Shown here: in pieces, positions 34,547 to 39,089 of the stretch | Layout: each line of letters starts with the position of its first letter | How positions within the stretch are numbered: position 1 is the stretch's first letter | Origin: Clostridia bacterium | Lineage (GTDB): Bacteria > Bacillota > Clostridia > Oscillospirales > CAG-272 | Direction: 5' to 3' | NCBI GenBank assembly: GCA_017517745.1 | Contig: JAFWYJ010000008.1 | Location: 1-39,089 of the forward strand | Length of the DNA stretch: 39,089 nt | Notes under the pieces: generated by a model | The model's input: the letters and a program-made list of their open reading frames with translations, nothing else | What the model was told of the DNA's origin: nothing | Databases searched by the model: none | Translations under genes and position numbers: made by a program

Positions 34547-35629
34547 TCAAAAGAGCTCGAGCAGTTCCTTGGAACTGTTCGTGAAATCGTAAAAGCTTCC
34601 GTCGGGGCGCACACAGGCGAGATCCTCGATACGGCAGCCGTATTTTCCTTCCAGATAAATTCCCGGTTCAAAGGTGACCACGTGTCCTCTTTGGAGCGTG
34701 GCATCCTTGGGGGAAGCGGGAGAAAGACGCGGTCCCTCGTGGCACAACAGCCCCACGCCGTGACCGAGCGAGTGTCCGAAGCACCCCTTGTATCCCGCGC
34801 CGTCGATGATCGACCGTGCGATCGCATCGAGTCCGTGCAGGCTCGCCCCCTCGCAAGCCGCATCAAGCGCGGCTTGTTGCGCCGTGAGAACGGTGTTGTA
34901 AAGCTTTTTCATCTCGGCGTCGGCACGCCCGAGCACAACGGTACGCGTCATATCCGAGCAGTATCCGTCGACCGTCGCGCCGAAATCCAGTGTCAAAAAG
35001 CCCTTCTCGAGCTTTTGGCGGCGCGGTACGCCGTGCGGACGCGAGGAATTGCTTCCCGAGATCGCGATCGTCTCAAACGCCAAGCCGTCGGCACCGTTGC
35101 GGCGCATGAAAAACTCCAGCTCCAACGCAACCTCCAACTCGGTCATCTCGGGATGCAGATGCTCCACAATGTGAGAAAACGCGAGATCGGTGATGCTCTG
35201 CGCGCGCGCGATGGTATCCAGCTCGCGCTCGTCCTTGTAAGCTCTCTGTGCCGAGAGAAGCTCGGAAGCGCCGGGCTTGACCGTATAGTCGCAAAGCACC
35301 TCGGTATCGCGCAAAAAATCGGCGTGGGAAAGCGCCTTCTCCTCGACGGCGACCACTTTGCATCCGTGATCGGACAAGAGTCCCGCGACGGTGAGAAGCA
35401 TCCCGCCGTTCCCTGCGGTGAGGACGGTCATTTCACGCGTGGTTTGCACGCGCGCCGCTTCGACGTAGCGAAAATCGGTGATGAGATAAGACTCTCCTCG
35501 CGTGACCAGAACCAGCCCGTCATCAAATGGAAAGTCCGACAGATAACGCTGGTTGAGCTTGTCGGAAACGATGGCGGCGTCAAAGCCCTTGGCGACGAGA
35601 GATTCCTTGAAATTCGATAGATGTGACAT
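34547..35629 (-). CDS. M24-family Xaa-Pro aminopeptidase
   Basis: This 360-aa cytoplasmic metallopeptidase removes N-terminal residues before proline. It has a creatinase-like N-terminal domain (1-125) and a pita-bread catalytic domain. The five metal ligands are D215 (TLDFG), D226 (CSDMTRT), H290 (GHSLGHGVG), E321 (FEPGIYLE) and E335 (RIED). The ATG at 35629 follows GGAGG. It is the first gene of the nine-gene minus-strand operon; plsY follows by 12 bp. In Firmicutes this peptidase often precedes efp, but here it does not. Confidence 0.94.
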   Translation of the reverse strand: MSHLSNFKESLVAKGFDAAIVSDKLNQRYLSDFPFDDGLVLVTRGESYLITDFRYVEAARVQTTREMTVLTAGNGGMLLTVAGLLSDHGCKVVAVEEKALSHADFLRDTEVLCDYTVKPGASELLSAQRAYKDERELDTIARAQSITDLAFSHIVEHLHPEMTELEVALELEFFMRRNGADGLAFETIAISGSNSSRPHGVPRRQKLEKGFLTLDFGATVDGYCSDMTRTVVLGRADAEMKKLYNTVLTAQQAALDAACEGASLHGLDAIARSIIDGAGYKGCFGHSLGHGVGLLCHEGPRLSPASPKDATLQRGHVVTFEPGIYLEGKYGCRIEDLACVRPDGSFYDFTNSSKELLELF

Positions 35630-35671
35630 AAAACCTCCGTTGCACGTCGCAGTGCATATTATATCCATTAT

Positions 35672-35700
35672 ATTATACCATATCTTTCCGCAAAAGTACA
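35672..35700 (-). promoter_or_regulatory. Possible promoter of the pepP-led operon
   Basis: On the minus strand TATAAT (35672-35677) has TGTACT (35695-35700) 17 bp upstream. The -10 is good and the -35 weak. It is about 40 bases before the aminopeptidase start and divergent from the spoIIGA promoter. Confidence 0.55.
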
Positions 35701-35734
35701 GAGAATGAGAAAAAATTTTTCAGTGCTTCTTTAA

Positions 35735-35768
35735 TTTGACAAAATTATCCGCGGCGGTGCGATATAAT
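35735..35768 (+). promoter_or_regulatory. spoIIGA promoter with wide spacer and Spo0A box over the -35
   Basis: TTGACA (35736-35741) and TATAAT (35763-35768) are both perfect sigma-A hexamers but 21 bp apart. In Bacillus subtilis the spoIIG promoter likewise has a 22-bp spacer and needs Spo0A~P. The bases TTTGACAAA (35735-35743) match the reverse complement of a Spo0A box (TTTGTCRAA) and cover the -35. The match is in one box only, so Spo0A control is an inference. Confidence 0.7.
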
Positions 35769-35804
35769 GATAGCAACGACAGACTTTTGAGGAGGATTGA
35801 CGCG

Positions 35805-36665
35805 ATGCAGCAAGCGGTGTATATCGATCTTTACGTATTGGTGAATTTCAGCATGGATCTGCTCTGCCTGATGATCACGGCATCGCTTTTGCACCGCAAA
35901 GTGAGTCGCCTGCGTGCGATCCTCGGCGCGATCCTCGGCGGCGTTTACGCCGCGGCGGCACTGCTGCTCGGATGGAACGGACTTTGGGGTTTGACGGCAG
36001 ATGTTTTGGCGGCGTGTCTGATGTGCGCCGTCACCTTTGCCTCACGGCGACAATCGCCTTGGAAGATCCTGCAATGCGCGGCGGTGCAGACGTTGGTCTC
36101 GATGTTGCTCGGCGGCGTGATGACCGCGCTCTACGCGGCACTCAACCGCCTCAAGCTTCCCTTCGCGGCTCTGCAAGGAGACGGCATCTCGGTCTGGCTC
36201 TTTGCCCTGCTGAGCGCCGTGGCGGGCGTGGCAACGCTGCGCGGAGGCTCTTTCCTCGGACTTTCGCGCAAAACCAAGCACGTAACCCTTCACGCGGTGC
36301 TGTTTGGGCGCGAGATCACCCTCTCCGCCATGGTCGATTCGGGCAACCTTTTGCGCGATCCCGTGAGCGGAAAAAGCGTGATCGTGGCAGACACCGCACG
36401 TCTGTCCGCAGTCCTGCCCCCCGCCCTCCTCTCCGCCTGCCGAAGCGGCGACTGTACCTCGTGGCTCTCGCATCCCGAGCAGGCAAAAAGGACGCGCCCC
36501 ATCCCCGCGCATACCGCCGCGGGCGAGCGGTTGCTGCTCGCCATCGTTCCCGATCGGCTGCGCGTCACGGTCGGAAAGGATACGTACGACGCCGACTATC
36601 TCATCGCCCCCGCGCCGCTCGGTGACGCGGCGCAAGGCTTTGACGCCGTGATCTCCTTACACTGA
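35805..36665 (+). CDS. spoIIGA: Pro-sigma-E processing aspartic protease SpoIIGA
   Basis: SpoIIGA is the mother-cell membrane protease that cleaves pro-sigma-E after activation by SpoIIR from the forespore. The 286-aa protein has about five membrane helices (about residues 8-150) and a cytoplasmic aspartic-protease domain with the catalytic Asp178 in [11 protein letters not shown]. SpoIIGA residue Asp183 of B. subtilis is equivalent. The C-terminal AIVPDRLRV and [10 protein letters not shown] segments also fit. The ATG at 35805 follows GAGGAGG. It is followed 37 bp later by sigE, the conserved spoIIG order. This supports a spore-forming lineage. Confidence 0.9.
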
Positions 36666-36702
36666 TTCCAATATTGATTTTTTATTTTCGGAGGTGGTTT
36701 CT

Positions 36703-37398
36703 ATGAAGATTTTCATTCGCTTGCGGCTTTGGCTTGCCGCAAAAATGTCCAAAAAAGGGCTGTTCTACATCAACGGACCAGAAGTCCTCCCCGCTCCGCT
36801 CTCTCAGGAGCGCGAGGCGGAATACATATCCCGAATCGAAAACGAGGACGCCCGCGCCGTTCTGGTCGAACACAATCTGCGCCTGGTGGTCTACATCGCC
36901 AAACGCTTTGAAAATACGGGAACAGGCATCGAAGACCTGATCTCGATCGGCACGGTCGGACTCATCAAGGCAATCAATACCTTTCGCAGTGACAAAAGCA
37001 TCAAGCTCGCAACCTACGCCTCGCGCTGTATCGAAAACGAGATTCTTATGCACATCCGCAAAAACGGCGGTCAAAGATGCGAAATCTCGATCGACGAGCC
37101 GCTCAACGTCGATTGGGACGGCAACGAACTTCTGCTCTCCGACGTGCTCGGCAACGAGGAGGATAGCGTTACCTATGAAATCGAACAGCGCGAAGAACGT
37201 GACACCGTCCGCCGCGCCGTCGCCATGCTCGAACCGCGTGAGCGCGAACTCATCGAGCTTCGCTACGGTCTGCGCGGCGGCAATGAGCTTACCCAAAAAG
37301 AAGTCGCCGATCTCCTCGGTATCTCACAGTCCTATATCTCACGCCTCGAAAAACGGATCCTCTCTCGCCTCCGTGAAGAAATCGCAGGGAGAATATAG
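36703..37398 (+). CDS. sigE: Sporulation sigma factor sigma-E (pro-form)
   Basis: Sigma-E directs early mother-cell transcription in sporulation. The 231-aa protein has an N-terminal pro-sequence of about 25 residues, basic and amphipathic ([19 protein letters not shown]), ahead of the processing region [14 protein letters not shown]. Region 2 has [26 protein letters not shown] and [16 protein letters not shown]; region 4 has [13 protein letters not shown]. The segment [21 protein letters not shown] is nearly as in B. subtilis SigE. The ATG at 36703 follows GGAGGTGG. sigG, often next in other Firmicutes, is absent; a terminator follows. Confidence 0.96.
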
Positions 37399-37413
37399 AA
37401 AAAAGGACGCGGT

Positions 37414-37452
37414 TTGGCGTACCTGCGATAAAGCAGGTGCGCCAAGTTTTTT
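37414..37452 (+). terminator. Rho-independent terminator of spoIIGA-sigE
   Basis: TTGGCGTACCTGC (37414-37426) pairs with GCAGGTGCGCCAA (37433-37445) with one G-T wobble, loop GATAAA, followed by GTTTTTT. The stem resembles the hairpin at 7523-7558, and the CCTGCGATA...GCAGG core recurs in the composite repeats at both window ends. Confidence 0.88.
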
Positions 37453-37481
37453 ATATCAACCACAGTTTTATTTATTAAGTA

Positions 37482-37510
37482 TTGACTTTTGAATGATGTT
37501 GTGCTATAAT
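37482..37510 (+). promoter_or_regulatory. Promoter of the leader peptide-GNAT transcription unit
   Basis: TTGACT (37482-37487) and TATAAT (37505-37510) are 17 bp apart. Transcription should start near 37517, giving a leader of about 158 bases before the GNAT gene. Confidence 0.85.
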
Positions 37511-37547
37511 AAAAGTACAAAATTGATACTTAAAGGAGGTGGACAAA

Positions 37548-37598
37548 ATGACAAACTTAACACTGATAAAATCAATTGCCGTTTTGTCCGCAAACTAA
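37548..37598 (+). CDS. 16-codon leader peptide upstream of the GNAT gene
   Basis: A very strong site, AGGAGGTGG, lies seven to eight bases before an ATG, and the frame encodes MTNLTLIKSIAVLSAN before TAA. There is no domain; the likely function is regulatory. Bases 37539-37550, including the start codon, can pair with 37580-37591 (GGACAAAA/TTTTGTCC plus wobble pairs), which would hide the start codon and part of the ribosome site. Codons 6-10 contain GATAAAATCAA (37565-37575), the perfect complement of part of the terminator that follows. This layout is typical of ribosome-mediated attenuation. Confidence 0.72.
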   Translation: MTNLTLIKSIAVLSAN

Positions 37599-37621
37599 CT
37601 TATATTGTTACGTCTTGACTT

Positions 37622-37657
37622 AATGCTCTTGATTTTATCGAGAGCATTTTATTTTTT
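37622..37657 (+). terminator. Attenuator: leader terminator before the GNAT gene
   Basis: AATGCTCT (37622-37629) pairs with AGAGCATT (37641-37648) around an 11-base loop, followed by TTTTATTTTTT. It stands between the leader peptide and the GNAT gene. The loop region TTGATTTTATC (37629-37639) is perfectly complementary to 37565-37575 within the leader frame, so an alternative antiterminator pairing of 11 bp is possible and would disturb this stem. Confidence 0.78.
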
Positions 37658-37674
37658 AAGAAAGAGGTAGCAAA

Positions 37675-38589
37675 ATGAAAGAAATCGTTACAATTCAAAT
37701 CAGCAAATTCTTAACAAACGAATATGTGGAACAAATTGCTCAAAATCAATGGAAAGCATTAACCCCACAGTTTACAAACCGATCGAGACAGTATATCTTC
37801 GACGAGCTTGTCGATAGCAACGATTGCTTTGGGGTAATTGCCACCACTGCAAAAAATCAAGTCATCGGCAGAATTCATTGCGTGAAAAATGAAAACAATC
37901 CTCATCTTTGGTATTATGGTGACTTGTTTGTGATTCCGGAATACAGAAGAAGAGGAATAGCAAAACAAATGATTCACGCGGCGACAAATCACTTATCTGA
38001 AATGGGAGCAACAACACTTCGGTGTTATGTCAAGCCCGACAACATTCCAAGCCGCAACCTTCAAATGTCATTATGTTTTTTAGAAAAGCCATTTGAATCG
38101 TTTAATGATTTCACAAATGACGGTGAAATCATGTATGAATTAGACATTCCAAACTCTTTAACTATTATCCCGGCAACAAAAAACGAGGCATATTTTGTGA
38201 GAATTCTGTTTGCTCAAAACAAAGATATTTTGAATTCCGGAAATATATCTCTAAGCGAATGGAGGGAAATTCTTTCTGTCGAAGATCCGGATGAAAAGCA
38301 TTTTTTAGTTTGCAAGGGTGCGATGCCTATCGCTTACATGAAAATTAATGGATTGCTGAATACGGATATAGCCTGGGTATCTATGTTATTTGTTGCAAAA
38401 GATTTCCAACGCCAAGGAATTGGATCTTTTGCGCTGAATTATGCGGAGCAATATGTTAAGGGGCTCGGATTTAATACGATTAATATCCAAACCGATAAAG
38501 AAAATATTGCAGCCATAAATTGTTATTCCAATTCCGGATATCGCATTTATGAGCAAAATTCAAAAATCAAGTTTAGTAAACTGCTATAA
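37675..38589 (+). CDS. Tandem-GNAT acetyltransferase, AT-rich accessory gene
   Basis: The 304-aa protein has two GNAT acetyltransferase domains. The first (about 1-155) has the acetyl-CoA loop RRRGIAKQM at 91-99 after YYGDLFVIPEY. The second (about 162-304) has FQRQGIGSFALNYAE (from 244) after WVSMLFVAK, then NCYSNSGYRIYE. Many inducible resistance acetyltransferases are GNATs, but no specific substrate can be named. The start at 37675 follows AGAGGTAG. The gene is much more AT-rich than its neighbours, has an attenuator upstream and a repeat element downstream, and probably came by transfer. Drug-inducible expression is an inference. Confidence 0.88.
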   Translation: MKEIVTIQISKFLTNEYVEQIAQNQWKALTPQFTNRSRQYIFDELVDSNDCFGVIATTAKNQVIGRIHCVKNENNPHLWYYGDLFVIPEYRRRGIAKQMIHAATNHLSEMGATTLRCYVKPDNIPSRNLQMSLCFLEKPFESFNDFTNDGEIMYELDIPNSLTIIPATKNEAYFVRILFAQNKDILNSGNISLSEWREILSVEDPDEKHFLVCKGAMPIAYMKINGLLNTDIAWVSMLFVAKDFQRQGIGSFALNYAEQYVKGLGFNTINIQTDKENIAAINCYSNSGYRIYEQNSKIKFSKLL

Positions 38590-38619
38590 GTGCTTTTATT
38601 CCCCCATACGCGGGGCTTC

Positions 38620-38856
38620 GCTTTTGTGTCCACAAAAGCAGTGCTTGTCAGGAAAATTGACGGACTTTTGGAATGCACGAACCAAAGGCTCCCTTGTGTA
38701 AAGGGAGCTGTCACCGAAGGTGACTGAGGGATTGTTTTAGAATAAATTTTGCTTTCTTACAATCCCTCCGTCTCGCTTACGCGAGCCACCTCCCTTTACA
38801 CAAGGGAGGCTCATTTCCTCCCGACAGTAAAACTATAAGGTGTAACACACTATACC
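38620..38856 (+). repeat. Element E, copy 2: 237-bp repeat with 120-bp inverted-repeat core
   Basis: The element begins 31 bp after the GNAT stop with GCTTTTGTGTCCACAAAAGC (38620-38639), then the shared tract 'tgcttgtcaggaaaattgac'. A 120-bp core (38689-38808) bounded by CTCCCTTGTGTAAAGGGAG and its complement follows, and the end is at the 'gtgtaacacac' segment. It matches the copy at 6651-6884 along its length. In both copies the same end faces the 3' end of an AT-rich gene. There is no coding capacity. Confidence 0.8.
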
Positions 38857-38870
38857 TTGAAGATCAAGAC

Positions 38871-39089
38871 GTATGAAAAAGGACGCGATTGTGGGGGCTT
38901 CTTTTTTGCGGGGGAACTTTTTAAAAAAAGCTTCCCCCGCCCCCCCTCAAAAACTTTTCGGGTAAGAGGGAAAAGGAAAGCCTTTATCTCTGCGCTCGAC
39001 CAATCAATCGCTCCCGCGGCCGGCGGCGACCTGCGATAGCAGGCACGCCGAACGATGTTTGCCTTCGGCAAGAGATGTTGGCTTCGCCA
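38871..39089 (-). repeat. Composite hairpin repeat at the window end
   Basis: The region has a GCGGGGGAACTTTTT/AAAAAGCTTCCCCCGC hairpin (about 38909-38941), the 'aaaacttttcgggtaagagggaaaaggaaagcc' unit also present at 26200-26420, and a CCTGCGATAGCAGG hairpin. The last ~98 bases are the reverse complement of 140-237 with one visible mismatch. No gene is supported. Confidence 0.8.

Follow-up and report, generated by a model that had tools for sequence, protein, structure and literature searches.

The stretch analysed here, called the window throughout, comprises 39,089 nucleotides of contig JAFWYJ010000008.1 from Clostridia bacterium, a gut organism (assembly GCA_017517745.1). Near its downstream end lies a gene for a tandem-GNAT acetyltransferase, preceded by a promoter, a short leader frame and an intrinsic terminator, and contained in a unit of ~1.5 kb that recurs elsewhere. 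The features of this locus are listed below, all coordinates being those of the window.

37414..38884, no strand assigned: ~1.5 kb unit consisting of hairpin, promoter, leader, gene and 3' hairpin, which recurs in six Clostridia contigs
37482..37510, plus strand: sigma-70/A-type promoter TTGACT-17-TATAAT with TG before the -10, 11/12 matches
37532..37539, plus strand: Shine-Dalgarno sequence (SD) of the leader frame, AAAGGAGG, ending 8 nt upstream of the leader ATG
37539..37550, plus strand: 5' strand of helix P1 (last G of the SD, spacer, leader start codon), forming a 12-bp helix with 37580-37591
37548..37598, plus strand: leader frame of 16 codons, MTNLTLIKSIAVLSAN, with its ATG at 37548 and its stop TAA at 37596-37598
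37565..37575, plus strand: 5' strand of helix P2, the putative antiterminator, within leader codons 6-10 and starting at +18 of the frame
37580..37591, plus strand: 3' strand of P1, within leader codons 11-15, pairing with 37539-37550
37622..37648, plus strand: intrinsic terminator hairpin T, 12 bp with a TTT loop, then a U-rich tract to 37657
37629..37639, plus strand: 3' strand of P2, taking in part of the terminator 5' arm, the loop and the first bases of the 3' arm
37661..37667, plus strand: Shine-Dalgarno sequence AAAGAGG of the acetyltransferase gene
37675..38589, plus strand: tandem-GNAT acetyltransferase gene, 304 aa, matching Pfam Acetyltransf_1 in two stretches (E 5.6e-30)

An earlier note on this DNA had proposed the promoter, the 16-codon frame and the terminator, together with two pairings, one that would hide the start codon of the leader and one that is a perfect antiterminator of 11 bp. 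The first three are present at the positions given for them, as a direct reading of the sequence shows, and both helices are as described: P1 forms 12 of 12 pairs, two of them G-U, between 37539-37550 and 37580-37591, and P2 is a perfect 11-bp inverted repeat of 37565-37575 and 37629-37639. P1 overlaps the spacer and the start codon of the leader but, of the SD core, only the last G. The claim that the pairings are mutually linked needs one refinement, bases being common to P2 and T but to no other two of the helices; P1 and P2 have no common strand, and P1 just encloses the 5' strand of P2. The leader RNA (37517-37656, taking transcription to start 7 bases downstream of the -10) has a fold energy of -31.9 kcal/mol (z = -4.58), none of 200 shuffles reaching so low a value, and its P2 was beaten by none of 300 shuffles of the P1 loop. 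Conservation in relatives is stronger evidence for the leader structures than these shuffle statistics. Rfam 15 returned no match on the window at the gathering cut-off; the best sub-threshold match within 37400-37700 was AbsR28 (21.5 bits against a cut-off of 50), and the list was not credible.

Relatives were collected by protein similarity and by covariance models. A protein scan of one genome-contig collection gave six loci of 85-99% identity (numbered, like all loci below, with the prefix L), and the leader was present in all six. Protein searches at E <= 1e-40 in 295 genomes of the family, 394 of the order and 391 of the class found matches in 11, 9 and 2 genomes, respectively, each count including the window's own. 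The conserved leader that the earlier note expected in related genomes was found at 12 of the 14 new protein-homolog loci (L012-L025), the exceptions being L020 and L021, where no leader lies within 420 bases upstream of the gene. Among these homologs, the L022 protein is 47% identical to that of the window and its P1 carries a double compensatory change; in L023 and L024 (39-41% identical) both helices differ in their letters, yet P1 extends over 10 bp and P2 over 13 bp.

A first covariance model, built on P1 and T from 11 leaders, was run on the 394 order genomes, and 105 of them matched at E <= 0.1, mostly weakly. Reading 23 of the 25 new loci thus obtained (without L051 and L052) revealed 16 genuine leaders and 7 plain terminators; weaker places that became no locus stand outside these counts. 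The terminator-only matches, L043, L047, L048, L049, L053, L054 and L055, were set aside as not being leaders, and since L043 had nonetheless scored E 5.4e-7, model E-values are not a safe cut. At E <= 1e-4, a wider model found matches in 23 of the 260 genomes searched from the family and in 6 of 250 from the class, the window's own being included in both counts; 16 of its 18 new loci were genuine leaders, while L074 and L082 were again terminators only. The total came to 45 leaders of this design in Clostridia, the window's and 44 further ones, leaving out near copies of the window (L001-L004, L006) and L061, which is cut by the contig end. P2 was counted on 41 leaders, without L012, L042, L045 and L073, the 4 of 45 with no recognisable terminator at the expected place. 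The leaders were picked by eye for a P1 over the SD and ATG, so that P1 is partly there by construction; neither P2 nor the open frame belonged to the selection criteria, but the models do include sequence of the P2 region. The genomes are drafts, partly incomplete, and the 45 leaders are related in groups, their counts not being independent events. For the P2 tests, terminators were placed manually in L065, L066 and L040, and L040 then failed the loop-shuffle control described below.

Some single loci deserve mention. L012 (minus strand, before a GNAT gene) retains the leader, P1 and the 5' strand of P2, with a longer hairpin-rich stretch in place of the simple terminator, to which P2 now fits poorly. 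L045 and L073 have a P1-bearing leader without recognisable terminator before GNAT-like genes and are possibly decayed or rewired switches. Within the window itself, 6728-6827 matches the leader model very weakly (16.1 bits, E 0.19), probably by chance.

The helices covary. In an alignment of 26 leaders (A3) whose structure was P1 and T, not P2, 97.9% of cells were paired and 16 of 24 pairs showed changes on both sides; the score of 0.526 compared with 0.235 +/- 0.015 after shuffling, none of 500 shuffles being as high on any of five measures, and sliding the partners by 1-3 columns brought pairing below 50%. P2, examined on the same alignment, was paired in 90.4% of cells, against 17.6-55.0% in slid versions, with no shuffle out of 500 as high on all five measures; 9 of its 11 pairs had changed on both sides, the kind of compensatory change in the 11-bp pairing that the earlier note would have taken as confirmation. 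Both the shuffle and the slide controls leave relatedness among the leaders in place. On an early alignment of 11 leaders (A1), P1 and P2 had one pair changed on both sides, and 28-32 of 500 shuffles were as high on four measures and 500 of 500 on the fifth. The match between a leader and its own terminator was further assessed by swapping terminators among 25 divergent representatives, scored by nearest-neighbour energy: own terminators summed to -300.7, permuted ones to -203.7 +/- 13.7, and none of 20,000 permutations did as well, a result also obtained with 16 loci and with 13 divergent ones (0/20,000 each). Of the 25 representatives, 7 paired best with their own terminator and 14 had it among the best three; for L050 it came 13th. 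Taken singly, 33 of 41 leaders passed the P2 loop-shuffle control (<= 15/300), but 8 of 41 failed it (> 15/300; L017, L036, L040, L041, L044, L046, L050 and L063); at least 10 uninterrupted P2 pairs are present in 27 of 41. T and P2 are mutually exclusive, the 3' strand of P2 lying inside T, and both covary. At the level of sequence, comparative evidence backs P1, P2, T and the open frame, and supports the interpretation of the leader as a putative attenuator.

The leaders have an SD and an ATG, and in all 45 the frame stays open through the 3' strand of P1, as a translatable short frame would; frame +2 is open over the same stretch in 26 of 45 and frame +1 in none. A stop follows within 25 nt of P1 in 44 of 45 leaders (median 5 nt). 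The register of P1 is kept modulo 3 in 37 of 45 leaders, being one base out in L037, L069, L071, L073, L080 and L024 and two in L023, with L050 also out of phase. No peptide is common to the 45. Those of L023, L024, L044, L046, L075-L077 and L081 are unlike the rest; in the main group, xKS and xLSA-like stretches are common, all within the P2 and P1 strands, and 24 of the 45 peptides contain the tripeptide [IVM]KS, which may point to some peptide constraint in this group. P2 falls in different frame classes across leaders and is shifted by one base relative to the frame in L018. We read this as selection for translation and mostly not for amino acids. Given peptides that differ from group to group and a P2 that is not always read in one frame, the position of the ribosome seems to be what is sensed, and not a peptide. 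In L003 (2874-2996), codon 17 (2922-2924) is GAA where the window has its stop TAA, and the frame is thus 40 codons long and runs across the terminator.

The same data bear on two other ways in which a leader peptide might act. In the manner of erm, an antibiotic-bound ribosome could stall at the IAVL-like stretch or at another motif and so change the fold; IAVL in the window is similar to IAVV, the motif at which ribosomes arrest on the ErmA leader, and the [IVM]KS tripeptide recurs together with common LSA- or LSV-like endings. All these residues fall in the P2 and P1 strands, however, where RNA pairing can explain them, and the frame shift of P2 in L018, the displaced P1 register in 8 leaders and the unlike peptides of several others argue against such peptide-specific arrest, as does the prediction, from the folding described below, that P2 stays covered while the ribosome stands on codon 11 or 13 (formed in 0 of 41 leaders), which leaves the gene off. 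With no conserved arrest peptide in 45 leaders, and strands read in different frames, this set does not fit the erm-type class, and we consider the explanation improbable. A nutrient-type attenuator, in which scarce aminoacyl-tRNA slows the ribosome at particular codons and opens the gene as in trp, his and ilv, would likewise use a leader frame, an antiterminator and a terminator, all of which are there. The longest run of a single residue is 3, though, in 2 of 45 peptides (L035 and L042), and the downstream proteins that were tested are GNATs, ABC_ATPase and others rather than biosynthesis enzymes, making this the least credible of the explanations considered.

The effect of ribosome position was modelled by folding each leader with a mask covering -14 to +16 around the P-site codon, in an RNA ending just after the terminator loop, P2 being called at >= 7 pairs; folds were nested, without pseudoknots, and the P-site codons run were 1-7, 9, 11, 13, 15 and 16. 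With the ribosome placed on each of codons 1 to 7 in turn, P2 formed in 40, 39, 26, 6, 3, 2 and 1 of the 41 leaders, and on codons 9, 11 and 13 it did so in 1, 0 and 0; the masks became permissive again on codons 15 (23 of 41) and 16 (27 of 41), so that a ribosome lingering at the leader stop could, by this model, also yield P2. Without a ribosome, the nested model gave P2 in 15 and P1 in 25 of 41 leaders. In this modelling the predicted structure depends on ribosome position, as the earlier note proposed of ribosome occupancy, with P2 in 40 of 41 leaders for codon 1 and in 6 or fewer for the codons tested from 4 to 13. In the window, the mask of a start-arrested ribosome allows P2 at RNA 3' ends of 37640-37644 (-18.9), and at a 3' end of 37648 T takes over (-20.8); free RNA folds as P1 and T at -31.9, and in the full-length RNA P2 is replaced by T even with start arrest. 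Commitment to P2 must therefore be kinetic if the model holds.

Among the explanations, the most likely in our view, with about an even chance of being right, is that the leader is a transcription attenuator that senses ribosome position and is opened by start arrest and closed by elongation. Ribosomes elongating along the 16 codons would cover the 5' strand of P2, letting T form and keeping the acetyltransferase gene off. If a ribosome were held on codon 1 or 2, for instance by an antibiotic that traps initiating ribosomes, it would prevent P1, and its leading edge, at about +16, would halt just before the P2 strand at +18; P2 could then pair with the 5' arm of the terminator as the arm emerges, RNA polymerase would read through, and the gene would be on. 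On a ribosome-free leader, P1 would shut over the start codon and enclose the P2 strand, probably leading to termination again. In this scheme the ribosome positions that permit P2 are those predicted by the masks; we infer that P2 causes the readthrough, that antibiotics are the natural signal of the leader and that the GNAT may protect against an antibiotic. We favour start arrest because of the ribosome edge at +16 to +18 reported for toiL-topAI-yjhQ of Escherichia coli (PMC12121999) and because of the logic of vmlR in Bacillus subtilis, where lincomycin or retapamulin arrests ribosomes at initiation and induction depends on the start of the frame (PMC9226507). P2 begins at +17 or +18 of the frame in 23 of 33 leaders; as in vmlR, the antiterminator strand would thus lie just beyond a start-arrested ribosome. 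This coincidence makes the mechanism directly testable.

The arrangement of P1 and P2 lends itself to a further explanation, in which both helices together form an H-type pseudoknot that acts as the antiterminator on an empty leader. Since the frame runs from the 5' strand of P1 past its 3' strand, any ribosome on it would destroy the pseudoknot; the gene would be on when leader initiation fails, through a shortage of free ribosomes or through inhibitors of initiation, and translation of the leader would turn it off. The two helices have no strand in common, P1 enclosing the 5' strand of P2, and the order S1-L1-S2-L2-S1'-L3-S2' with a short L2, that of an H-type pseudoknot, is found in 33 leaders, in which the junction L2 is steady at 0-7 nt and L1 ranges from 10 to 31 nt; between L075 and L076 there is a difference of 9 nt in L1 and none in L2. 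The stop, a median of 5 nt after P1, lets the frame tile the pseudoknot. The energies of the window speak against it: with each helix computed alone with its own loop cost and no pseudoknot terms, P1 and T (-14.7, -14.4) lie well below P1 and P2 (-14.7, -7.5), and the free RNA folds, at the energy given above, with P1 and T. An 11-bp helix formed in a closed 29-nt loop with its tail held by RNA polymerase would, moreover, be topologically awkward, and in vmlR induction is lost once the SD or the start codon of the uORF is mutated (PMC9226507). We therefore regard an empty-leader antiterminator as unlikely, if a serious contender. The broader idea that Clostridia possess a transferable RNA device in which the same nucleotides are both frame and H-type pseudoknot, antiterminating only on ribosome-free leaders, is in our estimate similarly doubtful. 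If true, such an RNA would gauge whether initiation occurs, that is, the supply of free ribosomes, and turn on acetyltransferase, ABC_ATPase and other genes.

The leader and its gene belong to a larger unit. Six contigs contain all or part of window 37414-38884 at 87-96% identity, with no similarity to window 35001-39089 beyond the unit; in L002 the contig ends inside the unit, and in L005 and L006 the main match stops at 38707. The unit recurs at different chromosomal places. Its 5' hairpin lies at 37411-37448 and a short hairpin, GCTTTTGTGTCCACAAAAGC, follows the gene; the GNAT frame is the sole frame of at least 80 aa apart from one entering from upstream, and no transposase gene is evident among frames of that size. 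The whole looks like a non-autonomous mobile unit. At 38686-38811, an imperfect inverted repeat (AGGCTCCCTTGTGTAAAGGGAGCTG / CACCTCCCTTTACACAAGGGAGGCT) surrounds another palindrome, and this stretch varies among relatives, which suggests a repeat element nested in the unit. Since the window shares leader and gene with six near relatives as one moving unit of ~1.5 kb, the identity among these reflects common descent, and the structures might be passengers of the unit with no regulatory effect. That P1, P2 and T have changed on both sides among divergent leaders, with unrelated genes behind them, makes this very unlikely. No relative was found in plasmids by tblastn, or in viral contigs by protein search and one DNA pattern, and PADLOC gave no match. 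Against solved structures, the window GNAT had five weak acetyltransferase matches (best E 2.8e-4) that do not name a substrate, and its 23 matches to GNAT models of NCBIfam were all under the models' own cut-offs.

The proposed attenuator does precede a tandem-GNAT gene in the window, as the earlier note had it, but the device is not specific to such genes. Pfam, run on 27 downstream proteins including that of the window, matched GNAT domains in 19, and the switch is not tied to the tandem GNAT because other kinds of gene also lie downstream: NAT_N/GNAT_C behind L030 and L059 (in L059 a short frame comes first and this one second), ABC_ATPase PF09818 behind L036, L075, L076, L077 and L081, whose P1 letters differ among leaders, an ABC transporter behind L044 and an HflX-type GTPase behind L050, the last two leaders being weak members whose P2 is not significant. 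L035 and L079 precede double GNATs with a C-terminal part that Pfam leaves unnamed; its kinase-like look was not borne out by any Pfam kinase match at E <= 0.01. The L072 leader resembles that of L081, and no downstream gene was identified for it. Behind the leaders of L016 and L017 lies a gene whose match to the window protein is confined to the C-terminal GNAT half, and domains have therefore been lost or gained behind a constant switch. In L022 the gene encodes a further GNAT fused to the tandem GNAT, with a stop inside the reading frame. In the window's group the RNA architecture travels with the gene as one unit, and such leaders mark candidate members of a translation-stress response, for example acetyltransferases and ABC_ATPase proteins of unknown role.

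The earlier note had likened this design to the erm, cat and vmlR leaders, of which start arrest as in vmlR seems the best comparison, and peptide-specific arrest of the erm type is not favoured, the peptide being variable. As predicted for the window leader, erm and cat leaders combine a leader frame with ribosome-dependent RNA switching; what matters in them is a peptide or a stall codon, and it is mostly translation of the main gene that they regulate. The vmlR leader shares with the window a short frame in a 5' stem, an antiterminator and an intrinsic terminator (PMC9226507). Its anti-antiterminator is described there as overlapping the antiterminator, whereas P1 and P2 of the window share no bases; its frame is MIN, of three codons, against ~16 codons ending just after P1 in the leaders here; and its gene is an ABCF ATPase, whereas most downstream genes examined here encode acetyltransferases. 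As proposed for the present leader, toiL senses several classes of ribosome inhibitors with a short frame, partly through arrest at the start codon (PMC12121999); it acts on topAI translation with Rho-dependent termination, in contrast to the intrinsic terminator of the window. In Listeria, rli80-hflXr places a frame with an attenuator before a ribosome-rescue or resistance gene, and the weak member L050 is likewise followed by a gene of HflX type. There is an RLR arrest motif in rli80, whose likeness to our leaders is one of description only (PMC6310831). uORFC-6-1, mainly of Bacillales, likewise stands before hflX and is likened to the weak member L050 by description only (PMC8632094). For a candidate uORF before fthC, a response to the speed of uORF initiation has been suggested, and in a formyltetrahydrofolate-related motif termination may be blocked when the loop of the terminator pairs with the hairpin before it, as a possible pseudoknot. 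Of the published ideas considered, these two taken jointly come closest to the empty-leader pseudoknot, although the motifs are separate and, in the passages on them (PMC11109978), neither combines both features or has an acetyltransferase target. Among the titles and abstract openings covered, most subscription journals and preprints lying outside, there was no leader of this design and no attenuated tandem GNAT. Drug-sensing attenuators are usually described gene by gene; in Clostridia, a single RNA architecture that covariation makes recognisable lies before several kinds of gene.
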